NCBI RefSeq assembly: GCF_003144245.1 | Contig: NW_020289975.1 | Location: 2,623,496-2,687,495, forward strand | Source of the DNA: Jaminaea rosea | Lineage: Eukaryota > Basidiomycota > Exobasidiomycetes > Microstromatales | DNA: 64,000 bases | Direction: 5' to 3' | Shown here: positions 31,001 through 51,604 of the stretch, piece by piece | Position numbering within the stretch: position 1 is the stretch's first letter | Layout of the letters: the number at the start of each line of letters is the position of its first letter | Notes under the pieces: generated by a model | Seen by the model: the letters and a program-made list of their open reading frames with translations, nothing else | What the model was told of the DNA's origin: nothing | Database searches by the model: none | Made by a program: the position numbers and the translations under genes

Positions 31001-33655
31001 CACCTGATCGAGTCTCTGCTGCGGCGCCTTTTGTACCCAATGGTGCAAGATGCCAGCGATCTGGTCAAGTGAAGACTCTGCGCTGCCCCTCTGCTCCCTT
31101 GCTGCCCCGTGAATGTGCGAGATGAGGATGGCAAGAATCTGCTTGACCGTCTCCACATCCACGAGCGGGCCCGGCTGGTCCAGAATACGACTGAGGAAGG
31201 CCTCGCCCTCGGTCTTTGATCCTGACGCAAGCTCATTCGCCACGTCGAGCGCCACGTCATCCAGTTTGGTACCGGAAGGGGCATCCAGCTGCACGTCTGA
31301 CGGCAGCCCATCTAGAAGGCATTGCAGGGTTGCTACCTTTGCCTTGGGGTCTGAGACAGAGGCGGCGCTCTCTACGAGAGTGACTACCGCCTTCTCTACG
31401 TCCGACGAAGGCGCCGCGCGAGCGTAAGCGGAGATGAACTTGCCGAGTGTCGAGGTGTTGATGGATTGCTGGGTGATGCTAGTCGGCAAGACGTCCTGCG
31501 CAACGCTGTGAGCCGCTGAGGACGGGCCAAGATCGGCAGGGAAGTGCGAGAGGAGGCTCGAAAGAAGGAGAAGGCGACTATCGAGCGACGTCGTTGTGGT
31601 GGACTGCGCAGCCTCGTCTGCGGCTTTTGTGACTCTGCTTTGGACTTGCTGAGCGAGGATAGAGGTCGAACCCTCTGACGGTGATGATGCCAGCTTCGAC
31701 AGGATGCTGACTGCTCGTTCGATGTGAGCTGCCGAGCTTGCAATGCTGCCTTGTGCAATCTCGTCCAAGCGGCCGAAGATGGCATCGAGAAGCGGAGTGG
31801 CTGCATTCAGCTTGGCCAAGCTCGCGATGGTGCTCGCCAGCCTGTCATCGACGCCTTGGCGAAGGCTGTTCAAACGAGTTACGGCCGCAGGATTGGTGCG
31901 ACGCGTCTCTATCGGTTCCCGCCCCTCAGTTGCATCAAGCACCTCCTCTCTCCACACTTTGCCCAAATGATCCCTCGCCAGCTGTGCCGCCTGCTCCGTG
32001 CTGTTCTTGCTCACCCTTCCCACAAGGTACGCCGCGCACTCAACATAGCTGTTGAAGAAGACATTGAGCGGCAGACGGTCGCCAGAATCGTAAAGACCGG
32101 ACTCGTAGGAAGCCCAGAAGTTGTTGAGAAAATGATCCCATGGTGTGGCTTCGAGGGGAAAAAGGTCTGCGTGGATCGTGGTGAGGAAGATGAGGATCGT
32201 TGGAAGACCTTGCAGTGGCTGGCCTGCACAACCTGACTGAACCCATGCTGTAAAGCTGGCGAGCTTGGTGCTCAGTGTCGAGGTCGTCGATGCGACGATC
32301 TTGGGCTCCTTGACCCCTGCTTCTGCTTCCTCTTCGCTGTCCTCATCGTCCTCATCATCGTCATCGTCATCGTCGCCATCGCTATCTGCCTGCTCACCGG
32401 CCATCTTCCAGGCATCTGGATGCTTGCTCAACAGAGGTAGTAGGGCGTCCAACATCTGCCTCTGCGTCGATGTGTCCCTTTCTTCCCACGCCGCTGAGAG
32501 AGCGATTGGGGCTACGATGTCAAGCGTTTGGGTGAGCAAGCCATCATGCTTGGCCGTCAAGACCTCGATGAGCTCCCATGCTCTTGTTCTTGTGACAGGG
32601 TATCCGGCGCCAAGCCCTTCGTGCTGCGGCGAAGAGTGCAAAGCTCCCCACATCTCTTGTGAATGGAGCAAGTTGACGAGCTCCTCGCACGAATCTGAGA
32701 CGCTCGCGTTGGACGAGAAGATCCAAGTCAGGGCCCCGAGAGCCCCTGCTGCTAGTCTAGCATCGATGCCTCGCGGATCTTCCTCGACATTGGTCTCGTC
32801 GCGATTCTTTGCGTCCCTGCCTCCATCGGCGCCATTGGCGAATGATTGTCCTCTCGTCAAGGCGGGGGCTGCAGAGCCACTCGCGAGAGCTGCTGATGAG
32901 CCTTGGCTGAGGAGGAGGGAGAGATAGTTGGCGAGTTGCGAGAGGTAGTCCGAGAGGGACAGCTTGTCCCCCTCACCTTCGGTGTCACTTCCCCAAGTGA
33001 CTGACTTCTCCCAGCTCTCTCTCGCCGTAAGCGACGTAGCTCGATCGGTATCCCATGCCAGCGTCGCCCAGGGTCCTAAGATTGGTTCGATGTATTGATG
33101 TGACTGGGTGAGTTCTCCTCTTGTGCTCAATGACGGCGCAAGGAGGCGACTGTGTATCTGCGCAGTGAGCAAACGCAACCGTCTTGTGGGCGAGGCTGCC
33201 AATCGAGGGAAAAGGTGCGCCCAGCTAGGAAGCATCATGACGAGAGCGCTCTCTCTCTCCTCAGCGCTGAGCATTTTTGCTTCCTCGTCTTCACCGCCTT
33301 GCCCGTCCACCCAGGCCAGTAGCCCCTCGAGCGCCCTACTTCTCGTGACGACATCCTTCTTTGCAGCTTTCCTCAGCAAGACGACCAAGCCCGGCGGCAG
33401 TAATGACGCCAAGCCGAGCGTATCGAGCGGATCAGGCGGGGGCTGAGGTGGCTTAGGCGGCGGGATGAAGACCTTCTTCTTTGGCTCCTTCTTGGACTTC
33501 TTGTCCTTCTTCTGGCCACGCTGAGGGCCTTTTGGCGTACCGGGAGCTACGGCGTCCGGTCCATCGCCTGCCTTCTTGGCCTTCTTGGCCGCCTGCTTCT
33601 TGCGTGTGGCCGACGAGGCGGAAGATTTGCCGCTGCCCTTTTTGTTGGCGGGCAT
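28085..33655 (-). CDS. RKR1: Listerin E3 ubiquitin ligase (Ltn1/Rkr1), ribosome quality control
   Basis: Single exon of 1,856 residues, near the size of other listerins (about 1,550-1,800). The N-terminal Lys/Ser-rich start (MPANKKGSGKSSASSATRKK) leads into the conserved DTLGLASLLPPGLVVLLRKAAKKD segment, with KDVVTRSRALEGLLAW. A very long HEAT-like helical repeat region fills the middle. The C-terminus has an RWD-like stretch (VLATYTIDEHPLEMAIRLPSSYPLHPIEV) and ends in a RING near residues 1808-1853 with CAICYSIIS, KHCKTCKHGFHAACL and CPLC. Ltn1 binds stalled 60S subunits with Rqc2 and ubiquitinates the trapped nascent chain. An Asp/Glu tract near residues 425-445 is an insertion in a loop, encoded by a TCATCG-type repeat at about 32338-32385. 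Confidence 0.93.
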   Translation of the reverse strand: MPANKKGSGKSSASSATRKKQAAKKAKKAGDGPDAVAPGTPKGPQRGQKKDKKSKKEPKKKVFIPPPKPPQPPPDPLDTLGLASLLPPGLVVLLRKAAKKDVVTRSRALEGLLAWVDGQGGEDEEAKMLSAEERESALVMMLPSWAHLFPRLAASPTRRLRLLTAQIHSRLLAPSLSTRGELTQSHQYIEPILGPWATLAWDTDRATSLTARESWEKSVTWGSDTEGEGDKLSLSDYLSQLANYLSLLLSQGSSAALASGSAAPALTRGQSFANGADGGRDAKNRDETNVEEDPRGIDARLAAGALGALTWIFSSNASVSDSCEELVNLLHSQEMWGALHSSPQHEGLGAGYPVTRTRAWELIEVLTAKHDGLLTQTLDIVAPIALSAAWEERDTSTQRQMLDALLPLLSKHPDAWKMAGEQADSDGDDDDDDDEDDEDSEEEAEAGVKEPKIVASTTSTLSTKLASFTAWVQSGCAGQPLQGLPTILIFLTTIHADLFPLEATPWDHFLNNFWASYESGLYDSGDRLPLNVFFNSYVECAAYLVGRVSKNSTEQAAQLARDHLGKVWREEVLDATEGREPIETRRTNPAAVTRLNSLRQGVDDRLASTIASLAKLNAATPLLDAIFGRLDEIAQGSIASSAAHIERAVSILSKLASSPSEGSTSILAQQVQSRVTKAADEAAQSTTTTSLDSRLLLLSSLLSHFPADLGPSSAAHSVAQDVLPTSITQQSINTSTLGKFISAYARAAPSSDVEKAVVTLVESAASVSDPKAKVATLQCLLDGLPSDVQLDAPSGTKLDDVALDVANELASGSKTEGEAFLSRILDQPGPLVDVETVKQILAILISHIHGAAREQRGSAESSLDQIAGILHHWVQKAPQQRLDQVRDIHLLEPLLTAAFMLKYLRQSGPHGSLSSLWDAVSSDAKATDAALEVLRDSVLDAQIEVVVVLEAARRFLGSSSTAGPSSKDVTALSILPSRQKMDEVLLEGLAATSSSPALAILDPLVTPKAGKSAAATSVQHDVEGLSLGVRSAYALLLTLEESRATAKANPWALPHLVFLATVCEDELSAAGSSRGLVEGSVDPARLQGILVRAVQVSSGILVSVGGSIAESWHKTATEALQRGLDGAVSSQDALLATLARLWQQCLIPSSDSRLPRIFSRLISGVLSFSSAGDQEATLWLRLGMSVESKAPLLSEAVILSTEPLVLETPFYDRMRNDVVSRLSATPPTKAASEGVRLLRLAVALAPPVESDVALVPQQRALFLLQGLQRWMASEEDFPDEVNTLVVDLFLHVAPIVQEMPGTHLDFFYDVLEENLELASLKEEASLPGLHATLQLLETLCELAGTNATLREVHKDHEEAIVELLQPLFASLATMSSAKGQQQAARTSLPLELTSDLLVSVVRRNSEGKSGKAFGQSTEHRVTLCKLLSSPMRSVQATAYRMLSASIRAHVQELIFQSAMDKGNEGGGGAEGANEGDGEKEATPVADAAQQLTTSKPTPVQKHRVELLPQLIEAVRSPLVATVEDLQEDADLCRATLSYLLCWLAIFEHFEGATPALRAVFSSQLQSDGALVASSLMPTVFDLVEPQRSGRTQSMTAAISASAQAASAPVVAYDPERFSLDELFLDSIDPSDVTSLRHLAAHVYLRSLIHLASSVREWFSSIKDRQLSIGVASFTTRHCSPLLTGRELSALRDPDSEARQQLLQDDAMSIKVLSSGTGGGGEVLATYTIDEHPLEMAIRLPSSYPLHPIEVKDVRRVGVAESTWRSWLLSVQRLVSTEGGGLVVDALLLFKRNAEAKFAGYEGAECAICYSIISPEDKRSLPNKHCKTCKHGFHAACLFRWVSTSGSATCPLCRSTL

Positions 33656-34820
33656 GGCGGGTGCTAAGAGAGAGACGAAGACTTAGTTGCGTGGTCTCGA
33701 GAAGAAATCAAAGGCAGGCGGCAAGCAAGACGTCGTGTGCCTCTCTCCATCGCCCGCGGAGTCGGACTCACTCGCTCGCCCCTCGTCTCGCCGCTCTGTC
33801 CGCCTTCTTCGTCAGCCCGCGTTTTCGACGTTTAGGTGGAGTGTCAAGGCTGCGACGTACCACATGGCACAGGGTCTTGTCCAACGTGAGATCACCATTG
33901 AAGCATTTCGACGTCGCTGCTACTGACAGAAATGCCAGGTGACGAGGGAACACGACACGACTACCACACCAACACGTCAGCGTCTTGGTCGAGTCGCGAC
34001 GTCTCTTTGAGATCTCCGGTCGCGGTAGAGCGTGACATGGCCATCAGTGGCGTCACGCTAGGCGCCGAGCATCATCGATTACCACGCCCATCGAGGATTG
34101 CTACGCTTTGACTTCTGACTCCTGATAGCGTGAACACTTTCTCGGCGAGGTCACCGATCCCTCGCTGTTCTCCTACGTCATCCTCTTCAACCTCCATCTT
34201 CCGGACGGGACAGGAAGAATTAGCAGAGGAATAGGCGGGCCTGCCGTCTCGCAGCTCCGCCGTGCGCCCGCTGCTGGACCCTGACCCTGACTATCGACTC
34301 GAAGGACGATGAGGCGGTGCCCTGAATGACGCACGACACGCCCTCGCACAAGCCAAGCACTGCCGATTTGGGCGCTCGATTAAAGTGCCTCCCCATCAGC
34401 AGCAGGCGACCAGGGTCGTGCTCCTTCTGGGCGGCGACGCTTGTTTGGACGCCTGCTTCATTCAGAGGCAGAAAGAGATGTCGGCAAAGCAGCACTCGGA
34501 GCAGCGGCTGAGATCGTACGATGCGGTGCACGCCTTGATGTCCGGGGTGGCACGAGAGCAATCTGAGACGTTGAGCCGTTGACTCTGTTTTGGGCATCAC
34601 GGGAGCCGTCGATGGGGATGGATCCGTCAACTTTTTTAGAGTGCAGCGCCGCTCAATGACAACATCGTTGCCGCTCGACCCCTAGACAAGCTCAGGCTTT
34701 TCTTGACGGGTCGGACGAGGGCCGACGAGGACGGCATACAAAAGGGTCGATGGTGGCCAACTCCGTCTTGACTCACTACAACAACATCATCGCTACATAC
34801 CACTGCCCTCATCTAACAAC
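33656..34820. other. 1.2-kb divergent intergenic region between LTN1 and the microprotein gene
   Basis: Frames here are short and contain no recognisable domain. A TATA-like TACAAAAG lies at 34737-34744, about 77 bases before the microprotein ATG, and is followed by CA-rich leader sequence (ACTCACTACAACAACATC), which would make a good core promoter. A CCCCT element (possible stress-response type site) is at about 34679-34683. These sites are suggestions from sequence alone. Confidence 0.35.
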
Positions 34821-35577: not shown

Positions 35578-37572
35578 CTATCCCATGGCGCCCGCCATCG
35601 CCGACAATTGCGCACCCTGCGCCGGGAACTTCTCAATGAAGTTGAGCTGCGCTCTTGATGCACTAGCGTACGAGAAGGCATTCAGGAGCTCTCCCTCCGT
35701 TCTGGCGATATTCGCCGAGCGCTCAAAGAAGTCGATTGCCTCCTGAAGCTTGCCCGACTGCAGGCTGAACTGCGCAAGCGTACCAACGGCAGCATCGCAG
35801 TCCTCGTCGATCTTGAGTGCCTCGCGGCAGAGCCTCTCGGCCGACGCAATGTCCTGCTTCCACTGGAAGAGGGCCAAAGCCTTGTTGATCATTGGCAGGA
35901 CGTTTCGGCTGGAGTCCCTCTGGCTCTCAATCTCGATCGCTTTGTCGAACTTCTCCATCGCCTCCTCATGCTTCCCCTGGTCGAGGAGCAACTCGCCGTA
36001 GTAGTTGTACGCTTCTGAGCTACCCTCGAAGTTGCGCAAGATGCGACGGAAGGAAGCGAGAGAGCCTCCGACGTTCTCAAGCTTATATTGCGCGACTGCG
36101 TGCTGGACTTGGGAGAAGATGAAGGTGTCGTCAAGCTTGGTGGACTTTTCGTAGTCAGCCATTGCTTCTTTGAACTGGCCGAGGATGAAATAGACCTGAC
36201 CGCGATGGTAGTAGATGTCCGGGTCGTCCGGGTTGGCCGCGATGGCCTTGTCAAAGTCGGAGAAGGCGGCCTCGTTCTCGCCGAGCTCCATATGTACGGA
36301 AGCCTTCTTGACCCAAGACTGGACGTGGCTGGGCTGCAGCTCCGTAGCCTGGTTGAGGTCCTCCAGAGCGCCAGGTGCGGTGCCAATCAGGAAGCGGAAG
36401 GTGCCGCGCATGTTATAGGCCAGCGCCTTGAGCTCGTCCGTGCTTGGCGACTGGTCGACAGCCTCGTTGAAGAGGCTGCAAGCGTGCGGATAGTTGCGCG
36501 CGTCCAGGGCTTGGAAGGCGAGGAGGAGCGTCTGGTCGCCCTGAGAGGGAGAGTCAGGCAGGGTGGGGTGCGGCTTCTTACGGAAGGCCTCGAGGTAGGC
36601 TGTGACGAAGGTGGGCGACGGCAGCTTGGGCTCACGAGTCTTGAGAAGCTCCTTCGCTTTGACGGTCGAGACCTTCTTGAGGACGCGCTCGACGCTCTCT
36701 GTGGCCGTCTGATCAGAAAAGTGGCCGAGGAGAGCAACGGCGGTGAAGTCGCACAGACTGCGAAAGAGGAGGTCTTTCTTCTCGTCAAGCTCAGCGCCGG
36801 GCTTTTCGCCGTCAGCGTCTGCGCCGAGGTGCTCTTGTGCCACTGCTCTCCTGTTGAGAGCTTTGATGTAAGCAGGGTCCATGGCGAGGGCTGAGTCGCA
36901 GTCCTTGATGACCTCGCGGTACTTGGACAGGTTCGAGTAGCAGGCAGCGCGGTTGGAGAAGAAGACTGCGAGAGGCTGCGCCGCGATAGCCTTTGTGTAG
37001 AGGTCGATTGCAGGCTCGAAGCGACGCTCTTGGTAAGCCTTGTTCCCCGCAGCCTTGAGCGCTTGAGCCAACGACTCTTTACGTTCTGATGGCAGCTTGG
37101 CGATCTCGTCCGCGGACAGCTTAAAGAGGGCCTCGTCGGATGCTTCCTCCAGCAGTGGTCCGTCAGGGCGTTTCAATGCATCGTCGCCGCTGCTACCACC
37201 ACCACCGCCGGCTCCACCCTTCTTGCTCTTCTTCTTCTTCTTCGACTTTGATGATGCTGCAGCTGCGCCGGTCCCCTTTGAGCCCGACTCTGCTGCATCA
37301 TCGCTGCCACCTGCCTTTCCCTTCTCAGCTGCATCTGCTCCATCGGGCGCTGACTTGCCCTTGGATGACTTCTTCGAGCTGCTACTGCTGCTACCGCTGA
37401 GCAGGTAGTAGGCTCCTCCTCCAGCGACGACGGCTGATCCGACACCGAGGGCGATGGCGAGGTTCCTGTTCTCGTCAATCCATCGCGAGAGGCGATTAGC
37501 CGTCGTGTGTGCCTGCGTAGAGGCAGCGTCGACGGCCTGTTGAGCGCTGTTGTTGGTCGTCGTGCTCGCCAT
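35578..37572 (-). CDS. TOM70: Mitochondrial import receptor Tom70
   Basis: Single exon, 664 residues from the ATG at 37572. An N-terminal anchor helix at about 38-58 (LAIALGVGSAVVAGGGAYYLL) is followed by a Ser/Lys/Ala-rich linker of some 90 residues. A TPR array then fills the rest, starting near residue 180 with ALKAAGNKAYQERRFEPAIDLYTKAIAAQP and containing AYKALNRRAV-like and YYHRGQVYFILGQFKEAMADYEKST repeats. This is the Tom70 plan: the outer membrane anchor, a clamp-type TPR domain that docks Hsp70/Hsp90, and a C-terminal TPR core that binds carrier preproteins. The open frame extends 34 codons upstream to 37674, but the extension would place an acidic, polar stretch before the anchor and lacks support. 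Divergent from the SUMO gene. Confidence 0.92.
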   Translation of the reverse strand: MASTTTNNSAQQAVDAASTQAHTTANRLSRWIDENRNLAIALGVGSAVVAGGGAYYLLSGSSSSSSKKSSKGKSAPDGADAAEKGKAGGSDDAAESGSKGTGAAAASSKSKKKKKSKKGGAGGGGGSSGDDALKRPDGPLLEEASDEALFKLSADEIAKLPSERKESLAQALKAAGNKAYQERRFEPAIDLYTKAIAAQPLAVFFSNRAACYSNLSKYREVIKDCDSALAMDPAYIKALNRRAVAQEHLGADADGEKPGAELDEKKDLLFRSLCDFTAVALLGHFSDQTATESVERVLKKVSTVKAKELLKTREPKLPSPTFVTAYLEAFRKKPHPTLPDSPSQGDQTLLLAFQALDARNYPHACSLFNEAVDQSPSTDELKALAYNMRGTFRFLIGTAPGALEDLNQATELQPSHVQSWVKKASVHMELGENEAAFSDFDKAIAANPDDPDIYYHRGQVYFILGQFKEAMADYEKSTKLDDTFIFSQVQHAVAQYKLENVGGSLASFRRILRNFEGSSEAYNYYGELLLDQGKHEEAMEKFDKAIEIESQRDSSRNVLPMINKALALFQWKQDIASAERLCREALKIDEDCDAAVGTLAQFSLQSGKLQEAIDFFERSANIARTEGELLNAFSYASASRAQLNFIEKFPAQGAQLSAMAGAMG

Positions 37573-37948
37573 CGAGGAAAGAGTGTTGAGAGGTGAGGTC
37601 GATGAGTTGACAAAAAGCAAGAGATCGTCGTCGACCTCTGGCTCGCACTTGCGCCTCTTTCCTTCCTCCACCACCCTGTGAGCCAGTCACTCACTCTGCC
37701 GCGCGGTTTTGGTCGAGGCCGACTGACTTCAACGACTCAGACTGATGATGGGCGGCGTCGCGTGGCAAACCATCTTGCTCAGGCTCGCTCAGTCCGCCCT
37801 CCGTCGTCCCCGCTCGCTCACCTCGCAGTCGAGGCGGCAATGAAGCGTCGTGTTTCTGGCCCGCCCTGAAACGCATCCTCATCATCTTTCCATCCGATCA
37901 AACCAACCACTCCTCCTTATCGCCACTGCCAGCAAGACACGCGCAATC
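37573..37948. promoter_or_regulatory. Divergent promoter between TOM70 and SUMO
   Basis: 376 bp between divergent start codons. The SUMO-proximal part is CT- and CA-rich (CATCCTCATCATC..., CCAACCACTCC) like other leaders in the window. No TATA box or named motif is clear. Confidence 0.4.
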
Positions 37949-38583
37949 ATGTCTGACCACGAGGAGAACGCTCCCAAGCCCGAGCCTGAGCAGCTCAACA
38001 TCAAGGTCAAGGACAGCGACGTGAGTGGGCGGGCGAGCGAGCGAGGGAGCGAGGGAGCGCGTATCGTGAGAGCGACGCATAAGCTGATGGCGACTGCCCT
38101 TCCTTCGCTCACCACGAATTAGGGAAATGAGGTCTTCTTCAAGGTCAAGTGAGTGCAGTGTGGCGCAAATGTTGCCTGATCGTTGCCGAGCAAGGCTGAC
38201 CATTGTAAACCCTCGTTGCCTCCACCCCCACCTCAGGAAGCACACCAAGTGAGCTTCTTCTCGAGGCCAGCCGCACGCTCCATCGCAGCCAGTCTTGCTG
38301 ACCACGCTCTCATCTTTGCCCCATTCCAGGCTCGCCAAGCTGCAGAAGGCCTACGCGGAGAGGATGGGCAAGCCCTTTACATCCATCCGCTTCGTGTTCG
38401 ACGGTCAGCGCATCAACGACGAGGACACAGCTGACTCGATGGGCATGGAGGACGGCGACGAGATCGACGCTCTGCCCGAGCAATTGGTGATTAGCCTCGA
38501 AGATGATGCTTCCGTGCGTCGCTGTATCGCTGACACCACCTCGCCTCACTTCGCTCTTGCGTTCGCAGGGAGGCTGCAATTAG
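37949..38583 (+). CDS. SMT3: SUMO precursor (Smt3), five exons including a 12-nt microexon
   Basis: Exons 37949-38020, 38123-38148, 38237-38248 (12 nt), 38330-38486 and 38569-38583 (15 nt); introns 102, 88, 81 and 82 nt; 93 residues. The product runs MSDHEENAPKPEPEQLNIKV, then GNEVFFKVKKHTKLAKLQKA, RMGKPFTSIRFVFDGQRI and MEDGDEIDALPEQLGG, a standard SUMO beta-grasp ending in the diglycine. Two residues (CN) follow and must be removed by a Ulp-type protease. Every junction is in phase, and the microexon supplies just KHT with parts of two lysine codons. The last intron uses the less usual donor GTGATT, and the diglycine lies wholly in the 15-nt last exon. SUMO is conjugated to nuclear and other proteins through the terminal glycine. 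Confidence 0.9.
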
Positions 38584-38991
38584 GCGCTGCACACCCTTTC
38601 CTTCTTGTCACCTTGTCGACGTGTGAATGGATGGACGGATCGCTCGCTGAATTGACCAGGACGGCAACATCGGCAACGACGTCCTCCTTGCTCGCTCGGC
38701 CCATATGACCCGCTACCATTCGATGTACACTCAACCTCCCTTCCATCCGTTCATCACCTTCACTCGCCACCTTGTTCCGCTGATGCGAATTTCAAGACGA
38801 TGTTCCTGATTGCGAACGGGATGATGAGCTGTTGCGCTTGGGCGCGTCGGTCGCGTTGTGCCGACTTGCCTGCTAGGCAGATTGGGTCGGCCCTGTCTGG
38901 TTTGCTCTGACCTCCCATTGTCACCCTCCAATCCACCTTGCCTTCCAATCAGCTACATTTGCGCATTCACCCAACAGGCGCACATGTCATC
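38584..38991. other. Intergenic region between SUMO and the xylulokinase-like gene
   Basis: 408 bases between two plus-strand genes. The final part (38925-38985) has CA/CT-rich leader-like sequence. A CAACAG at 38971-38976 could act as a splice acceptor if the next gene had an upstream 5' exon, but the conserved N-terminus begins right after the ATG at 38992. Confidence 0.4.
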
Positions 38992-41900
38992 ATGGCTGTC
39001 GCGGGAATTGGTCACCTCGCGCTCTCCTTCGAGATGCGCCTCGACCGCCTCGTGATTGTCGTCATCGACATTGCACAACAGCTCAAGCCCATACTCACGC
39101 ACACCGTCGTATTTGATCGCGACCTGCCCCAATATCAGTGAGGGCGAGTGCCGTGCACTACCATGAAAGTTGCTAATGCCTCCTCATCATGACCTTCACT
39201 TTCCGCCCCCTCATCGCCATTCTGCAGGACTCGCAACGGTATCTATACGCTTGGGCCCGCTCCTGGCCCAGCATGCGTCACCCCCGTCGAGCTCATCATT
39301 GCTGCGCTCGACACGGCGTTCGAGTGGCTGGCCCATGCTCAACTGCCATCCACGCCAAGCTCATACACCTATTCAGCTCTGCCCATCATCGCCCGCATCA
39401 TGTCCATTTCCATCGCTTCTGAGGTGAGAATGCGCCAGCAGTGACGCTGCACTGCAGCAGTAGTCTTTGCTCAACTCTTACTCCACCGTCCCACAGTCCC
39501 TGGCTCCTGTTTTCCTATCAGAGATGGCCGGCCCACTCTTTACTGCCCTCTCACCCTCGCTCGAGCTACGCAGCCAACTCTGCTACCCGACCTGCTTCAC
39601 GCTCCCGCTGAGCCCCGTCGAGCAAGATCATTCAGCTTCAAACGAATTGCACGACATCGAATGGGCCATATTTGAGCAGCTTCGCGACAAAAACCCCGAC
39701 TGCAAGGACCCAGCCTACCGCCCGTCACGAGTCGAGGTCCGGAGAGTCGTCAATGAGAGGTTGGGAAGCCCTTTGAACGCCAATGGCTGGATGCCGCAGC
39801 TCCTCAAGATCAAGCGTGGACGTACTGTTGCTTCTGATGGACGAGGGATGGGCACGCTGCAAGATGTGTGGGAGAGGAGTGAGCGCGTCGTGACGCTGCC
39901 CGGCTTGCTCGCCAGCATCCTCGCTGCAACGGTCGTAGAGTGAGCCGCCGTTAACATTGCTCAACATTAGTATCTCGCTCACCTTTTGATGCACATTGCA
40001 CAGCATGACACCAAGCGAAGCTTCGCTCACTGGCATGCTCCAAGCCGACGGCAGCTGGGACCACAACATCCTTGCTCTCGTCGATAATCTGAGCCATACC
40101 GGCGCGCCAAGTCAAACCTACGACCGACCCCTGAAGGACATGCTCGGCCCCATCAACGACCTCTCCCTGCAGGGCACCATCAGCGCCTACTTTGTCGAGC
40201 GCTTCGGCCTCAACACAGCTTGCATCATTACTGCCCCTATTCCGTCCGCTGTCGCTGCGTACCTCTCCTTCCTACCTGGCTACAATGACGTCGGCCTGCA
40301 TCTCAGCCACAGCGATACGCTCATCGTACCCACCACCACGGCCGCCGTGATACAAGAGGGCGCTCTCGTACACAATCCGACGGCAGGTCTCACTGTCGAT
40401 GTCGAAGAGAGATCGGGCACACCTTCTCAGCCCTATCTGCGAATTGCCACATTCCCATCGTCCAGCGAGGCTCGTTTGGCCATTCGCAATGCATATGGCA
40501 ATGCGGATTGGAGCATCTTCGGCAAGGTCATTGGTTTCGTGCCCGTCGGCGGGAGCATTGGACTGGACAACAAGGTGGGCGGGATACGCTGCTTTCACAC
40601 CAGCAACATTATCCTGACTTCCACTCTTCTGCTCCTAGTTTTTCTCCATCTGGCGTCACGACGGGCATGGCCCCTTGCTTACGCGCTATGAAGGTGGTAT
40701 CCCTGTGCCGGAATTTTCAGACCTGCGAGCCAACCCACGCTGCCTCATCGAGGGGCAGGCACTGGCCTCACGCGCCGTCTACGCCCGAGTAGCCACAAAC
40801 GACCGCTCCGCAGCGGCTGCAGCGGGCAAGAAGGTCCTCAAGAAGGCCACGCCGCTCTCAGCCGACTTTGCCTCAGGCTTTCTCGGCGCTGGCCAGGTGC
40901 TTGGCTTCGACCCGTACGACCTGACTGTGTCCCCCGAGCGTATACTCGCGTGGGGCAGAGCCGCACACAATGAAGCCATCGCCGACTGCTGGAGCAATGT
41001 CTTGGGTGGGCAGTGGGTCGTACCGTCTTGCGAGCGAGAGCCATGCGCTGCCGTGGGAGCGACCTTTCTCGGCCTGGCCAGCATTGAGGCTCACCATGCC
41101 CGGCAGCATGGAGGCAGCTTCCCCGGCTTCGCTCCCTATATAATTTCCCTTCTCGACGGCTCTACTGCCTTCTCGCCTACCACGCCCTCGAATGCACAAC
41201 TTCCCTCAAGCCCACTCTCACCGCTCTCACCCAGTACGTCGTCGCCCCCACCGTTCTTTCAAGGCAGGCTGCGTTCATCCTCCTCCCCGCTCATTAGCAG
41301 CGACCTCGGTCGCTTCACGCCGTTCAGCCTCGTCATCCAGCAGGCGGACTTTGAGCACAGGTCACCGTCCATCACCAGTCCTACGACGGGCTTCTCAAGC
41401 GTGATCGGTGGAGAGCCACTCACCCCGCCTTCCTCGCCTCTCATGGCGCGTAGGATGCCAAAGAGAACGACTTCGAATATCTCTTCAACGACGCATGGAA
41501 GTAGCTCGTTGCATGTTCTGGAGGAAGGAGAGGAGGAGGGTACTGGTGCCTGTGCTGGGCCGGAAGCCGTGACTTCCAAGGTAGGCAGCGATGAGCCATC
41601 GATTGAGGATGCCACCACGCCCAAATCGTCCGTCTTCAAGATCAACACAGCCGTAGGCCGAGGCCAAGCGGAATCTACCACAGCTTCGACGATGATATCG
41701 CGCCGAAAGTCTTTCAATACTCTCGCCTGGGACATGACGAGCATGAGCCGCAGCATGAGCAGCAGCGGGATTCCAACGACGAGCAGCGCCGCACGAGGCA
41801 TTTTTGAGCCTCCTTTACCTGTCATCGGCCGGCCGCGCGCTGATACGGACCTCGGCCTGCGAACACTTTCTACCATCTTGGACACCGTCCCGCAGGCCAA

Positions 41901-42549
41901 GTCAAGCGCCTACCAGCCACAGCAGTTAGAGCAGCCGATTCACCATGCGCAGCGTCAGAGACAGATCTCTTCCGGCGCCAAGAGTGACGGTGACGTCGGA
42001 GTAATTGGCAGCGCCCGCTCTGCCTCTAACTCTCCAATTCGACGCATCTCCTCCGCTTCCTTTGTCCAGGCGTCGTCCATGTCGCCTATCTCGCCGCCCT
42101 CTGAAACCTCGTCGACCGCAGACAGCGACGGGCATGAGAAGAGGATGCGTGCTTGGTTGATGGGACACATTGATGGTCCAATGCCGGTCGCAAGTGCCAA
42201 AGAGCCGGCTTCTGCGAATGCGTTGCCCGCTAATGCGACAGAGGCAAGCAAGTGCGTGCGATCCGATCACGCTGAAGAGGCGGCTATGCCCCCTCCCTCC
42301 AACAACGAGTCGTCAACCAGCTCCGTCCAGCTCATCAACAATCGTCATCATCTCATTCACCCTCATTACTGCCAGCTTGACTCTCTGCGTCACTCACACG
42401 CGCGTCATGAAAAGCTCCTCGGCTTGAAGAGACTGGCAGAAGCAGACGAAGACTTGTGGATCGTGTACGGTGCGCTGGCCGAGGAGTATGTCAGACTGAG
42501 GTGTGGAGGGAGGGAAGTAGGGAGTGCTGTTGCCGAATCGCGCGAGTAG
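38992..42549 (+). CDS. Xylulokinase-like FGGY protein with eroded active site and long disordered insertion
   Basis: Exons 38992-39137, 39228-39423, 39497-39939, 40004-40574 and 40639-42549; introns 90, 73, 64 and 64 nt, all in phase; 1,088 residues against about 540-600 for xylulokinases. Homology is seen in FDRDLPQYQTRNGIY, QGTISAYFVERFGLNTAC, SHSDTLIVPT, the RHDGHGPLLTRYEGG region, LIEGQALASRAVYAR, and the late block RILAWGRAAHNEAIADCW followed by EPCAAVGATFLG. Key sites have changed. The first phosphate loop (normally GxDxSTQQ) reads LSFEMRLDRL. The substrate motif GQQHG is gone. The TGDNP loop reads TAPIPS near residue 338, and the GGAS loop reads GRAA. An Asp survives in SPVEQDHSA near 155. 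Residues about 640-1015 are a Ser/Pro/Thr-rich insertion before a native-looking C-terminal helix (DEDLWIVYGALAEEYVRLR). A true kinase role is therefore doubtful. Confidence 0.8.
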
Positions 42550-42939
42550 TAGATCATGGCGAGCTGGTCCTCGTCTCTGATGTTGCATTCTCTTCACCCT
42601 TCATCTACTCACAGTCAATGAGAAGTCACTGTCCATCCAGCCGGCTGTGATTTGCACGACTCCACCCCCCAACTTGACAGCCAACCGAGGCGCGCGCCCA
42701 GAGTTGCACGAAAAGAATTCGGATGGCTCGAGCGTCCCCACATTGGGCGTGACCCAGCCCTCCAGCCCTCAAACCCAAAAGCAAGGCATGGCTTGGCCCC
42801 TCAAGGGTGGCGGCCCGCTTGCCCACTGACATCCACCCCAGCTCCGCCTTGCACGCAACCTAGTGCTCTATCTAATCACTACCACCATCATCATCATAGT
42901 CTGAACCCTCAAGCGATAGGAGCGACTATTCAGCTCAAC
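42550..42939. other. Intergenic region upstream of the six-exon gene
   Basis: 390 bases between two plus-strand genes. The open frame of the next gene extends upstream to 42652 but begins with a non-ATG codon and has no conserved look. The ACTACCACCATCATC leader-like stretch at about 42878-42895 is pyrimidine/adenine-rich. No other feature seen. Confidence 0.4.
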
Positions 42940-44292: not shown

Positions 44293-46882
44293 ATGCCAAC
44301 CTCACAACAGCAGTTCCAATCGGTGCCGCTCACCTCTCCGGACCTCACACCCCTCTCTTCACTACCAGAGAAGACCGATCTCGCACGATGGCGTCTCACC
44401 ACTCCTGGCCTGGGAACGCCAGACGTGGGAAGGCATTTGTGGAGCTACTTGAGCGACGATGAGGTGGGCACTGCGGGGGAGCAGACGATGGAGGATAGAT
44501 TTCACCTGGGACTACTGCCGACTTCGTCGTCTGGATCGAAAGGCGAGCGCCGCAGCGCAGCGAAAGCAGCAGAGGATGCGTTCCTTTATTACCAAAAGGT
44601 TCAATCCCCTGATGGCCACTTCGCTGGCGAGTATGGAGGGTGAGTATCGCGCGCAGCGAGACTATATGTTATCAGACGCAGACCAATTAAGCTCACTGTC
44701 CTTCACATTGCCGTGCTCAGCCCTCTCTTCCTCCTTCCCGGTCTCGTAATCGCCTCGTACGTGACCGAAACCCCTTTCCCAACCGAATGGCGCATCGAAA
44801 TCACCCGCTACCTTCGTAACGAGCAACACTCAGACGGCGGGTGGGGCCTTCACATCGCCGGTCCCTCAACAGTGTTTGGCACGGCAGCAAACTACGTCGT
44901 GCTTCGTTTGCTAGGGAACGGGCCCGATCTGCCCTTCATGGCGAAAGCGAGGGCTAAGCTCCACGAGCTGGGCGGGGCAACGGGGATCCCGAGCTGGGGG
45001 AAGCTGTGGCTGGCTGTTCTGGGCGTCTATGACTGGGAAGGCATGAACCCAATTCCGCCTGAGCTGTGGTGCTTGCCCGATGGGGTGCCGATTCATCCCT
45101 GGAGATGGTGGATCCATACGCGCATGGTCTACATCCCTATGGGGTGGTTGTGGGGGTGCAAGTGTGAGTTCGGTGCGACGGGCGATGGCTACGACGGCAG
45201 CTGAAGAGATTGACATGTTCCCGTCCCTGTTTCCGTAGACACATACCATGACGCCGAGACAGATTCGCTCATTTCAGCGCTACGCACAGAACTCTACGCC
45301 AAGCCATACAGCTCCATCAACTGGCCCTCACAGCGCAACAACATCGCCTCAATCGACATTTTTGCACCGCACACTAAGGTGCTCAACGGGCTCATGTCCC
45401 TTCTCGGCATCTACGCCAAATTTACCCCGGGCGTTGTTCGCTCCGCTGGCCTGAAGCAAGCCTACAATCTGCTCTGCCGGGAAGACGAGAACACCGGCTA
45501 CCAATGCCTCGGCCCTGTCAACAAGATGCTGAATCAAGTAGTCCGCTACGCAGTCGATGGGCCCAACTCCCCCGCAATGGCCAAGCATCGCGAGAAGATG
45601 CGCGACTTCCTCTGGATGTCCCCTTCCGGCCTCATGATGTGCGGGACAAATGGCTCCCAACTGTGGGACACGAGCTTCATAGCTCAGGCCGTCTCCTCTA
45701 CCTCGACACTTGTCCGCAACCCCAACATCAAGCCCAGCATCCAAGCCATTCTTGCTTGGCTGGACGACACGCAGATTCGCGAGAATCCGCAGCATTATCG
45801 CTCTTGCTACCGCTTCTCTACGAAGGGGGCTTGGCCGTTCAGTACGAAGCAACAAGGATATACTGTGTCTGACTGTACGGCGGAAGGATTGAAGGCAGTT
45901 TTGGACCTGCAGCAGGAGAGTATGGGATTGGAACAGCTGGTTGATGAGGGGAGGCTCAGAGACGCAGTCGACCTGTTGTTGACCATGCAAAATTCTTCTG
46001 GCGGATTTGCTAGCTACGAGACGATCAATGGACCGGCGGTGCTGGAGTGGATCAACCCGGCGGAGGTGTTCGGAGACATCATGATTGTGGGTGATGGCGA
46101 AGCCGCAGACCGCCAGGTACTTGAGCTGACGATCGATCCCCCTCACTTGGCCGTCATCAGGAGTACTGCTACCCCGAATGCACCACCTCCGTCGTAGGCG
46201 CCCTTTGCAAGTTCCGCGCCCATTCCCCCAAGTATCGCCGTGCCGACATCGACAAGTGCGTCTCTCGTGCCGTGGCCTATATCCTCTCCGCCCAGCGCAA
46301 GGACGGATCTTGGTTTGGCTCATGGGCTGTATGCTTCACCTACGCGACTATGTTCGCCCTCGAATGCCTGCACCTCGCCGGCTACCACTACGAGAACTCA
46401 GAGCCGGTCAGGCGGGCGTGCGCATTCCTTGTCAGCAAGCAGAATGCAGAAGATGGAGGATGGGGCGAAGGATTCGAGAGCTGCGTACGTGGGGAGTGGA
46501 CGCCGACAGAAAGCGGGAGGAGCGAGGTTGTGCAGACTAGCTGGGCACTGTTGGGGCTCCTGCATGCACAGTACCCTGATGAGGATGGAAGCTTGAGGAG
46601 GGGCGCTGAGTTTGTGCTTCGGGGCCAGGAGGAGGATGGGAGCTGGAAAGAGACGCCAGAAGGTAGATGTGTGGGCGTCTTCAACCGTAACTGCGGCATC
46701 GTGTATCCGAACTATCGGTGAGTAGCGCGAGGGAGAGGAGGAGACGTTCGCACACGAGAGCAGCTTTGACTGACTTCCGCCTCGCCCTTTCACTTCGCCG
46801 CAGCTTCTCCTTCACCATCTGGGCGCTGGGTAAGGCAACGCAGCGATTCGGAGAGTCATGGCCGCCGGCATCGACGTCTTAG
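44293..46882 (+). CDS. ERG7: Lanosterol synthase (2,3-oxidosqualene cyclase)
   Basis: Five exons: 44293-44639, 44721-45163, 45239-46086, 46161-46717 and 46804-46882; introns 81, 75, 74 and 86 nt, all in phase; 757 residues, the normal size. The enzyme cyclises 2,3-oxidosqualene to lanosterol in ergosterol synthesis at the ER or lipid droplets. Several QW repeats are visible ([46 protein letters not shown]). The catalytic motif DCTAE lies near residue 474, with its Asp as the initiating acid, and [17 protein letters not shown] joins correctly only across the third intron. The C-terminus [17 protein letters not shown] is also split by an intron. No predicted signal peptide; a membrane-dipping hydrophobic patch ([14 protein letters not shown]) follows the first intron, as in other cyclases. 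Confidence 0.95.
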
Positions 46883-47208: not shown

Positions 47209-48836
47209 TTACTTCTGCTTGTGTAGCTTGATCAGCGCTACCTGCAACAGCTCTGCGTAAGACGTTTGCGTGCTCTGCGCCAGCTCGGCTTCACGCAACT
47301 CTTTCCTTGTTGCTTGGTCCTCGTCTTTCTTCTCTGGCCCCTTCTCCTGGCTCTGGCTCTCCTCCTTCTCGGCTACCGGCTCCGGCTCCTTGTGCATCTC
47401 TTTCACCTGCTCGTCCGTAAACGCTGGCCTATCCAGCCCGGCGGCAAATGAGTCCGCAGCATACTCCATGGAGCGCACGGCGCTATTCATCAAGAACTTG
47501 AGTACCGCATCCAGCGGCGCCAATACCAGCTGGAAAAGCTCTAGCCCAATGATGACAGGCAGCACCGGGCTCGCCAGCCCCGCCTTCTCGGCGAGCGTAC
47601 TCGCCTGCCCAAATCCGAAGGCCTCAAAGAGTGACCTGTTGTCGATGAAGCCAGCAAAGACCGCAAAGGTGAAGCCAATCTGCGCCTGTGCGAGTACCAG
47701 CAGCTTCGTAGGGTCGCTATGCGCCCAGTGGCCCAACTCGTGCGCCAAGACGGCCTCAATCTCACTGCAAGTCGACTTGGCGATGAGCGAGTCGTAGACG
47801 ACGATGTGCTTGTTACCCCAGGGCAGGACACCAAAGAAGTACGCGTTTGAATGGGCAGAGCGCCTTGAGCCGTCGATCTGATGCAACTTGGCCAGAGGAA
47901 AGCGCAGAGAAGCGGCCAATATTTCGACTCGTGCTTTTAGCAGTCCGGGGGGCAGAGGCGTCAAGGTGTTGAATAGCGGCTGGATCACCAATGGATAGAG
48001 TACCTGCAAGACCACCTGGAAGGCGAGCATGAATACCAGCACCCAAAGGACGAAGCCATCCGTCCCCGCCCAGCGGATGATACTGATCAAGGCGGCGATG
48101 ACTGGGCTCAGAACTATCCCGCCCAGAGCGGTGGATTTGAGGAAGTCGGTGAAGAAGGTGGTGCGCGTCATCTTGTTGAAGCCATGTGCCTCTTCGAGGT
48201 AGAAGTGAGAGTAGTAAGAGAGAGGTAGGTCGAGGATAGTGCGAGAGAGAGAGGACAGGAGGGTAAAGATGATCGATTGTGTGATCTGCATATGGAAGGG
48301 GCAATCAGCATGTTGGACACTGCGTGTGCGGGGAATGTATGCTATTCGCGAGCTCACCTCCGTCGTACGCCAGTCGAGCTTCTGCAGCACGTCAGCCGAT
48401 AGCTGCCAAAAGAATGGCATGAGGTCGAAGTAGACTATGGCGAGAGAATTGAGGAGCCCCCACGCTGCTACCACGAAGCCGAAGCGCGCCTTGTCCCTGC
48501 CGTATCGCTGCGATTTCTTATAGGTCTCGAGATCGACATGCTGCAGAAGAGAAGCGGGAGGTGATGGGAAGGAGTAGACCTGCGAAGAGAGCATACTCAA
48601 GCATCAGCTGAACGTTCGTCGATAGTCGGTTTTCCTCGCGATGCACTGACCTTGTATTGACGCAGAGAGAGGTACGTCTCAAAGGCCCAGACGCCCACAA
48701 TGAGGTAGAGGACGAGCGTCTTCCATGGGACAGCAGGGTCGTCCAGCGCAGCAAAGGCGCTATGCAGCTGATGCTTGGCAGCTTGCACGATATGGCCGGA
48801 CATGAACGTTGAATGTGATGGTGAAGAGATAGACAT
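47209..48836 (-). CDS. STE24: CAAX prenyl protease 1 (Ste24 zinc metalloprotease)
   Basis: Minus strand exons 48836-48651, 48579-48358 and 48285-47209; introns 71 nt (donor GTCAGT) and 72 nt; 494 residues. The N-terminus matches Ste24 (VPWKTLVLYLIVGVWAFETYLSLRQYK, then DLETYKKSQRYGRDKARFGF). The zinc site HELGH lies near residues 315-320, with SEIEAVLAHELGHWAHSD around it. Several membrane spans line the rest. After the last spans a Glu/Lys/Gln-rich stretch (about 445-475) precedes the C-terminal helix. Ste24 removes the last three residues of prenylated CAAX proteins, trims fungal a-factor-type pheromones and clears clogged translocons. Intron 2 is 72 nt with no stop, so the frame reads through it. 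A start at the second Met (48803) is possible. Confidence 0.93.
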
Positions 48837-49027
48837 CGTACGACATTCTCTCGCGGCTCTTCTTTGTCCTCGTATGCACGGGCCCCGGCGCCTCGCTCGC
48901 GTGTGAGTCTCGGGCTGACATAAGCAAGGGAGGAGATTTCTGAAGCGGCCGCTCGCCGGGAGCAGCGGGAAAGTGAGAAGCGGGGCAGCGACTTTCTTCG
49001 TGTTGCGCCTCCTCATTCGTCATCAAT
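48837..49027. promoter_or_regulatory. Divergent promoter between STE24 and MEF1
   Basis: 191 bp between divergent start codons. GC-rich, containing a NotI-like GCGGCCGC at about 48944-48951; no TATA box seen. Confidence 0.4.
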
Positions 49028-51604
49028 ATGAGCGCCCGTATCGTCGCTGGCAGCAGAGTTGGAGCTGGCCGACTTGCTCGCCTCTCAGCTAGAGGCGTAG
49101 CAACGTCTCGCAGCGCTCCTGTTGCTGCCTCTATCTCGCCATCATCATCCTCTAGACGATGCATATATTCTGCTCCTCTTCGCTTCGCCGCCGGCGCTCC
49201 TTCATCCTCTCGCTCCTTCCACTCTTCGAGAGCAGCACACGTCGACGTAGCAGCAGAAGCGGCCGCGGCTGCTCCTCCTCCGGTGGAGTTGAGCCAAGCG
49301 GATCTGACTCGTCTCGCTAGGCAACGCAACATCGGCATCGCAGCTCACGTTGACTCAGGAAAGACGACTTTGACGGAGCGAGTCCTCTTTTACACAGGCC
49401 GTATCAAAGACATTCACGAGGTCCGCGGTAGAGATGCCGTGGGAGCAAAGATGGACCATATGGAGCTGGAGAGAGAAAAGGGAATTACCATCCAGTCCGC
49501 AGCTACATACGCACATTATCGTGCCACTCCGCCGACGGAGACACGGGCTGTGAGTGGCGACGCAGCTTTGATGGACACAAAAGGCGAAGCTCCCAAGGAG
49601 GACTTTCACCTCAACATCATCGACACACCCGGTCACGTTGACTTCACAATCGAAGTAGAGCGAGCGTTGCGTGTCCTCGATGGAGCTGTATTGGTGCTCT
49701 GCGCCACCTCCGGTGTTCAGTCACAGTCCATCACCGTCGATCGACAAATGCGCCGCTATCGTGTCCCCCGCATTTCTTTCATCAACAAGATGGACAGGCA
49801 GGGCGCAGACCCCTGGCGTGTTATCGGACAGATCCGACAGAAGCTCCGTATGCCGGCCGCAGCTGTGCAGATCCCTATTGGAGCCGAGGACGAATTCAGT
49901 GGAGTAGTCGACATTGTGAGGTGGAAGACGGTATACAACGAAGGAGAGAAGGGAATCGTCGTACGAGAGGAGGACGGCGTACCTGCCGAACTGGAGGAGT
50001 TTGCCAAGGCAAAGAGGCAGGAACTGATTGAGCAGCTCAGCGAGGTGGATGAGACTATGGCGGACATCTTCCTTGAGGAGCGAGAGCCTACGCTCGAGGA
50101 GTTGGCAACTGCCATTAGGCGAGCGACGCTCACGTGCAGCTTCTCGCCTGTCTTCATGGGCTCGGCCATCAAGAACAAGGGCGTGCAGGCCATGCTTGAC
50201 GGTGTATGCGCGTACCTGCCTGACCCTTCGCAGGTGCCCGTCACGGCGATGGACATGAGCAAGGAGGCCATTGAAAAGGCAAAGGCAGCCGCTGCTGAGG
50301 CTGCAGAGGCCGCAGCGGGTACTGCATCCGCCGAGGCAGTTGTCACCGGCACGCCCGCCACCCAACCCCTCATCAGCCTCGCCCCCGCCTCCTCTGCTCC
50401 CTTTGTCGGCCTCGCCTTCAAGCTTGAAGAAGGTCGTTACGGACAACTAACCTACGTGCGTGTCTACCAAGGGACGCTCAAGCGGGGCACAACAATCTTC
50501 AATGCCCGTACAGGCAAGAAGGTCAAGGTGCCTCGCCTGGTGCGAATGCACTCAAACGACATGGAGGACGTGGACGAGCTTGGCGCTGGAGAGATTTGCG
50601 CCATGTTTGGCGTCGAATGCTCATCGGGCGATACCTTCACGGACGGTCAGACGTCCCTCAGTATGACGAGCATGTTCGTCCCGGACCCGGTCATCTCGCT
50701 CGCCCTCACTCCCGAGGGAGGCGAAGGAGGCAAGGGAGCGGGAGGTGCCATCTCGCAGAACTTTTCGCGTGCGCTCAACAGGTTCCAGAAGGAGGACCCG
50801 ACCTTCCGCGTGCACGTTGACTCCGAGTCTGGCGAGACGATTATTAGCGGTATGGGCGAGCTTCATCTCGAGATCTACGTCGAGAGGATGAAGCGCGAGT
50901 ACAATGTGCCGTGCAAGACTGGCAAGCCTAGAGTCGCCTTCAGGGAGACGATTGGCGCGCGCGTACCTTTCAACTACACACACAAGAAGCAGACTGGTGG
51001 TGCTGGTCAATTCGGACGTGTGGTTGGGTACATTGAACCAATGGAGCGCGACGAGGAGACGGGCAAGGATGTGGCTTTCGAGAACAGGGTGACGGGTGGA
51101 AACATTCCCTCGGGCTACTTCGCTGCATGTGAGAAGGGCTTCTACGAGGCGCTGGAGAAGGGTGCACTTACTGGGCATCCGATTCAAGGGATTCGCTACG
51201 TCCTAGAGGACGGAGCAGCTCACTCGGTCGACTCGTCCGAGTTGGCCTTTAAGCTGGCTGTCATGGGCTCCATCCGAGACGTGTACCGCAAAGCGCAGCC
51301 TATCGTCCTGGAGCCCAAGATGAAGGTCGAGATTACCAGCCCGGCACAATGGCAGGGTGCCGTCGTGGGCTCTATCAATCAGCGTCAGGGACTGGTGGAG
51401 GACTCGGAGACTCGGGCAGACGACTTCAGCTTGACGGCAGAGGTGTCGCTGAACAACATGTTCGGATACTCGAGCTTGTTGAGAGGGCTGACCCAGGGCA
51501 CGGGAGAGTTCAGCATGGAGTACAGGAACCACTCGCCCGTGGTGCCGGGGGTTCAGAAGGATATGGAGGCAGAGTATGCCAAGATTCAGGCGAAGAAGAA
51601 TTAA
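49028..51604 (+). CDS. MEF1: Mitochondrial translation elongation factor G (mtEF-G1)
   Basis: Single exon, 858 residues. The first about 70 residues are Arg/Ser/Ala-rich with almost no acid and form a mitochondrial presequence. The G domain follows with AHVDSGKTT near 106-114, the switch region [21 protein letters not shown] near 198 and NKMD near 253. Domains II-V continue with [22 protein letters not shown], then [17 protein letters not shown], the conserved GGAGQFGRV block, and [20 protein letters not shown] near the end. EF-G1 moves tRNA and mRNA through the mitoribosome. An Ala/Glu-rich insertion of about 25 residues (near 415-445, [11 protein letters not shown]) sits just before domain II and is not part of the usual family. 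Its 3' end meets the BAR gene about 200 bp away. Confidence 0.95.

Follow-up and report, generated by a model that had tools for sequence, protein, structure and literature searches.

The XYLB-like gene and its surroundings

The window analysed is a stretch of 64,000 nucleotides from Jaminaea rosea (contig NW_020289975.1), and coordinates are those of the window unless another contig is named. The locus of interest, 38992-42549 on the plus strand, is hereafter called the XYLB-like gene and its product the XYLB-like protein. Five exons join in frame to give 3,267 nt, which encode 1,088 residues with no internal stop and end in a stop codon at 42549. The four introns measure 90, 73, 64 and 64 nt and all have GT-AG borders, and the ATG at 38992 is the first of its open frame, as read from the translation. 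The gene model of a preliminary description (five exons, 1,088 open codons, sound splice sites) is thus upheld. The exons, the sites discussed below and the neighbouring genes are listed in Table 1.

Codon usage in the part encoding the kinase-like domain is coding-like (z 8.5), and the values for this domain and for the Ser-rich arm that follows it both lie within the range of the neighbouring genes. The neighbours scanned against Pfam are ordinary conserved genes. A small ubiquitin-like (SUMO-like) gene with short introns apparently lies directly upstream on the same strand (38000-38600, from reading of the translation).

Table 1. Features of the XYLB-like gene and of its neighbourhood (window coordinates)
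Feature	Position	Strand	Remark
Listerin-like E3 ligase	28085-33682	-	upstream neighbour, Pfam
TPR protein	35578-37686	-	upstream neighbour, Pfam
Exon 1	38992-39137	+	residues 1-49; holds the first phosphate loop site
First phosphate loop site	39013-39045	+	HLALSFEMRLD in place of LGxDxSTQ
Exon 2	39228-39423	+	residues 49-114; ends within the GQQH-equivalent site (SE/SL)
Exon 3	39497-39939	+	residues 115-262; remainder of domain I
Exon 4	40004-40574	+	residues 262-452; domain II, first half
GDN loop site	40230-40262	+	lost
GTS loop site	40296-40331	+	SHS
Exon 5, all	40639-42549	+	GT-AG-joined, in frame
Exon 5, first part	40639-41160	+	residues 453-626; remainder of domain II
GGAS loop site	40942-40974	+	GRAA
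Ser/Pro/Thr-rich arm	41161-42330	+	residues 627-1016 (390); open frame, codon bias
RRKS site	41701-41712	+	arm
RRIS site	42040-42051	+	arm
C-terminal 72 residues and stop	42331-42549	+	possible remnant of the family C-terminal helix at 42457-42498
Cyclase C-terminus	45214-46197	+	downstream neighbour, Pfam
CAAX protease	47209-48603	-	downstream neighbour, Pfam
Elongation factor G	48977-51604	+	downstream neighbour, Pfam

A remote member of the XYLB branch

When 177,635 distinct PDB sequences were searched with phmmer (E up to 1), the sole sequence matching the XYLB-like protein was human XYLB (E 3.4e-12). The match consists of two significant stretches, which cover domain I and the first part of domain II. 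Pfam and NCBIfam scans returned no family at E up to 1, a blindness that indicates how far the protein has drifted.

A profile was built from 82 XYLB-type proteins: 80 from bacteria and archaea (the best 80 of 481 confirmed), XYLB residues 12-481, and the canonical xylulokinase of J. rosea described below. The XYLB-like protein, with its insert left out, scored 93.5 bits over three stretches, and E. coli XylB, an annotated xylulokinase of another branch of the FGGY family, scored 112.8 bits; the canonical copy, itself a profile member, reached 522 bits. Since E. coli XylB is about as remote as the XYLB-like protein, it is a fair control, albeit the only one used.

A tree of 44 rows (40 of the 80 bacterial rows together with the XYLB-like protein, E. 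coli XylB, the canonical copy and XYLB) placed the XYLB-like protein in a group of nine, whose other members are XYLB, the canonical copy and six bacterial proteins; support for this group is weak (bootstrap 88, SH-aLRT 80). Its end branch is 10 changes per column; that of E. coli XylB has the same length, so branch length alone is no sign of decay. Similarity in domains I and II makes the XYLB-like protein an FGGY carbohydrate kinase relative, of the XYLB/XylB-II branch by descent, and the XYLB ancestry first proposed from the sequence is borne out by both the phmmer and the profile scores. Searches of bacterial and archaeal genome contigs and of viral contigs gave no relative of the protein.

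Active-site residues

In the FGGY kinase SePSK, changing D8, T11 or D221 to Ala makes ATP hydrolysis with D-ribulose much lower, and corresponding mutations in E. coli xylulose and glycerol kinases greatly cut activity, according to PMC4880283. The counterparts of all three SePSK residues are absent from the XYLB-like protein.

At the first phosphate loop, the residues aligned to the catalytic Asp and Thr are E and L (S and M with a register shift of one), and no D-x-[GSA]-[ST] occurs in residues 1-60 whatever the alignment. GQQHA is aligned to SESLA. TGDNPA corresponds to IPSAVA in one alignment, and in another GDNP falls on APIP; residues 325-354, the expected place of the GDN loop, contain no Asp whatever the alignment. 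Two further loops are changed in part: SLGTSDTL reads HLSHSDTL (5 of 8 conserved positions kept) and ATGGASxN reads AWGRAAHN (4 of 7 kept). In exon 3, the Asp of the WxDSST motif is kept and its W lost, and the YERFTG motif keeps 2 of 9 conserved positions. Also retained are the SDT that follows the second phosphate loop, the first Gly of GGAS and the C-AxVGA segment. The earlier view that the first phosphate loop, GQQH, GDN and GGAS had all been replaced stands for the first three; GGAS, like GTS, is altered just in part. Intron 2 (39418-39508 region) splits the GQQH-equivalent site between SE and SL.

We also counted retention at 100 conserved positions, for which at least 95% conservation among the 82 proteins and a residue in 70 or more rows were required. 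Of these, 38 are kept by the XYLB-like protein and 46 by E. coli XylB. The list of motifs was drawn up once the alignment had first been inspected. On this list, the XYLB-like protein retains 11 of 45 positions versus 24 of 45 for E. coli XylB (Fisher P 0.009), and it keeps 27 of 55 non-motif positions versus 22 of 55 (P 0.44); the four kept counts tested together, motif versus rest, give P 0.045. A cruder test restricted to positions at which XYLB and the canonical copy are identical showed no concentration of loss in motifs (20/58 motif positions kept versus 51/130 others, P 0.63). We give more weight to the alignment-free absence of key residues than to these counts.

A different set of exons could in principle restore the canonical motifs. 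None of these motifs was found in any forward frame of 38700-42700, nor in the stop-free junction peptides from 165 alternative splice pairs, whose sites lie no more than about 80 bases from the called ones.

A canonical xylulokinase elsewhere in the genome

The preliminary description had proposed to look for a second, canonical xylulokinase, and one is present. Searches of the genome (16.6 Mb, 21 contigs) with FGGY_N and FGGY_C at E up to 0.001 gave three loci, on contigs C4, C10 and C3, and the XYLB-like gene appeared in neither list. NCBIfam places the C4 locus as a glycerol kinase, C10 as an FGGY pentulose kinase and C3 as a xylulokinase; C10 alone passes the NCBI cut-off. C4 and C10 were scanned with a single exon apiece. 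The C3 gene (about 997,908-999,747 of that contig, minus strand) encodes 612 aa from the first Met, with 40% identity to XYLB (E 4.1e-77) and every motif intact, and for this locus the XYLB match and the complete motifs weigh more than the NCBIfam placement. This copy excludes the XYLB-like gene as the only xylulokinase of the genome.

The two proteins are homologous, with 126 identical residues at 555 aligned positions. The canonical copy lies entirely within one open frame of 646 codons (L007, 1909-3849, minus strand). Because the XYLB-like gene has four introns whereas the canonical copy sits in a single frame, it is unlikely to be a retro-copy of the latter. A domain search of J. rosea's own genome listed the XYLB-like gene alone and missed the canonical copy, so further remote copies may exist.

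The Ser-rich arm and the C-terminus

The arm (residues 627-1016) has no in-frame stop. In 2000 simulated sequences with the same base-to-base transitions the mean number of stops was 9.2, and none was stop-free (0/2000). Compared with nine long reading frames nearby, its codon usage leans in the same direction (z 4.5), with a codon score of 0.073, near the floor of the range of 17 reference stretches (0.070-0.198). The arm is thus a long coding Ser-rich stretch, as had been described. It is single-copy, matching nothing but itself in the genome. Order-promoting residues make up 18% of it versus 33% of the domain, and it is probably disordered. At 41740-41766, within a stretch encoding SMSRSMSSS, an imperfect 12-base tandem repeat is present in 2.2 copies.

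Four site patterns were tried in the arm, with P values uncorrected. [ST]P pairs number 16 versus 11.2 expected from composition (P 0.06), and the richness in SP sites noted earlier is therefore not secured; enriched instead is RxxS/T (12 versus 6.5 expected, P 0.009). The pattern [RK][RK]x[ST] occurs 3 times versus 0.76 expected (P 0.039), and the 14-3-3-type R..[ST].P once versus 0.66 expected (P 0.49), which is no enrichment.

The arm had been regarded as an insertion placed before a native C-terminal helix. The sub-profile of this helix scores the last 72 residues at 0.5 bits, a value reached by 219 of 2000 shuffles and hence not significant, although these residues outscore 26 of 26 windows of the arm. 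Codon bias in the last 73 codons is not significant either (z 1.2). With the helix not borne out, the arm may simply extend the C-terminus instead of being inserted before it.

Predicted structure

The AlphaFold2 model of the exon 5 frame alone is unusable (pLDDT 38.7); the arm has neither helix nor strand in this very low-confidence model. For exon 4, with 41 of the 80 bacterial relatives in the alignment, a modest pLDDT of 57.5 was obtained. The six best PDB matches of this model, which are the sole ones at E < 0.001, are all human XYLB chains (E 1.4e-4 to 3.5e-4), with low TM-scores of 0.37-0.38 of the query and large rmsd values of 10.8-15.1. The predicted fold agrees with the sequence evidence and adds little to it, since the xylulokinases in its alignment may have steered the model.

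A probable pseudoenzyme with a binding or regulatory role

By sequence comparison, the XYLB-like protein is homologous to FGGY kinases in both domains and has lost the residues for phosphate binding and sugar binding and the catalytic base; the genome also encodes an intact xylulokinase at another locus. Three features of an active xylulokinase are missing, namely the Asp and Thr of the first loop, the Asp of GDN and GQQH, and the combination of an open frame, lost catalytic residues and an intact paralogue is that of a sugar-kinase pseudoenzyme. A pseudoenzyme is the likely reading, and the protein probably has a binding or regulatory role.

The best explanation, to which we give a probability of about 0.5, is an FGGY pseudoenzyme of the XYLB branch whose role would be that of an adaptor bearing a phosphorylatable arm. 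The two-domain fold would be retained, sugar turnover would be gone, and the fold would be reused as a protein-binding platform. The arm would be phosphorylated by cellular kinases at basic-directed Ser/Thr and at some SP sites, and its phosphorylation would switch binding by the platform. The basic-directed sites would point to an AGC-type kinase as the controlling enzyme, and a PKA/AGC-like kinase would be the first candidate. An adaptor is preferred to a sugar sensor because the sugar-contact motifs are gone together with the ATP loops; residual nucleotide binding is possible, given that GGAS keeps its first Gly and that S-D-T is still present behind the second phosphate loop.

The protein might instead be a dead sensor, which would bind a small ligand (a pentulose or a nucleotide) and signal through the arm. 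The model for this is yeast Gal3, a galactokinase-derived sensor of galactose and ATP and thus a fungal sugar-kinase relative turned regulator; it differs in having a GHMP fold, in keeping substrate binding and in lacking a long disordered arm. The SDT, the GGAS Gly and the C-AxVGA segment speak for some retained binding, but GQQH, the W of WxDSST and GDN are gone and the GT of the phosphate loop has become SH, and we consider a sensor unlikely. From the initial proposal of a pseudoenzyme serving as scaffold or sensor, the pseudoenzyme, the intact frame and the scaffold are hence favoured, and the ligand sensor, with GQQH, W and GDN lost, is the less likely part.

Many FGGY kinases are dimeric, and the XYLB-like protein could associate with the canonical xylulokinase as a partner subunit and tune its activity, the two being homologous and encoded in the same genome; with identity at just 126 of the 555 aligned positions, this appears quite unlikely. 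An active kinase with another substrate and re-invented active-site residues would account for the intact frame and for the family segments kept in both domains, but would have to work without an Asp in residues 325-354 and without D-x-[GSA]-[ST] in residues 1-60, and is very doubtful. Finally, a gene decaying under relaxed constraint, or a wrong gene model, would agree with the long end branch, with the similar loss rates of motif and non-motif positions in one test and with the lack of a relative showing constraint in the bacterial, archaeal or viral contigs searched, but is made highly improbable by 1,088 open codons, GT-AG introns, codon bias like that of neighbouring genes and the equal branch of E. 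coli XylB, in keeping with the earlier view that this is not a decaying pseudogene.

The adaptor reading can be carried further. A duplicated xylulokinase would have become a signalling adaptor, whose phosphorylated arm might couple a PKA-like pathway to pentose metabolism or to the canonical xylulokinase; in this extended form the scenario is speculative and, as it stands, rather improbable.

Relation to known proteins

The XYLB-like protein had been presented as a new kind of regulator. This is too strong, because the FGGY family already provides an adaptor precedent in mouse Gykl1 and Gk2, proteins without detectable kinase activity that were proposed to be adaptors and whose sequences depart from that of glycerol kinase at several residues, Asp17 of the catalytic site among them (PMC5566117). 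They resemble the XYLB-like protein as FGGY kinase paralogues with a catalytic-site change and extra C-terminal sequence; they differ in their glycerol kinase origin, in a short tail that targets mitochondria, in being close to their parent and in being animal proteins. In the titles and abstract starts of open-licence PubMed Central articles, no report of a xylulokinase or FGGY pseudoenzyme, be it a paralogue or a fungal case, was evident, and the available portion of an FGGY family survey (PMC3245297) contains no words beginning with 'inactive', 'pseudo' or 'fung'.

Relatives of metabolic kinases that lack catalysis are a recurrent source of regulators, and a fungal regulator derived from a xylulokinase would extend the Gykl1/Gk2 case to the XYLB branch. 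It would also be a warning, in genome-based reconstruction of pentose pathways, not to label such genes as xylulokinases. The likeness to human XYLB (PDB 4bc2-4bc5) consists of the sequence match in domain I and early domain II and of the top fold match of the exon 4 model; compared to XYLB, the XYLB-like protein lacks the catalytic D, T, D set, GQQH and GDN, and has 390 extra residues.
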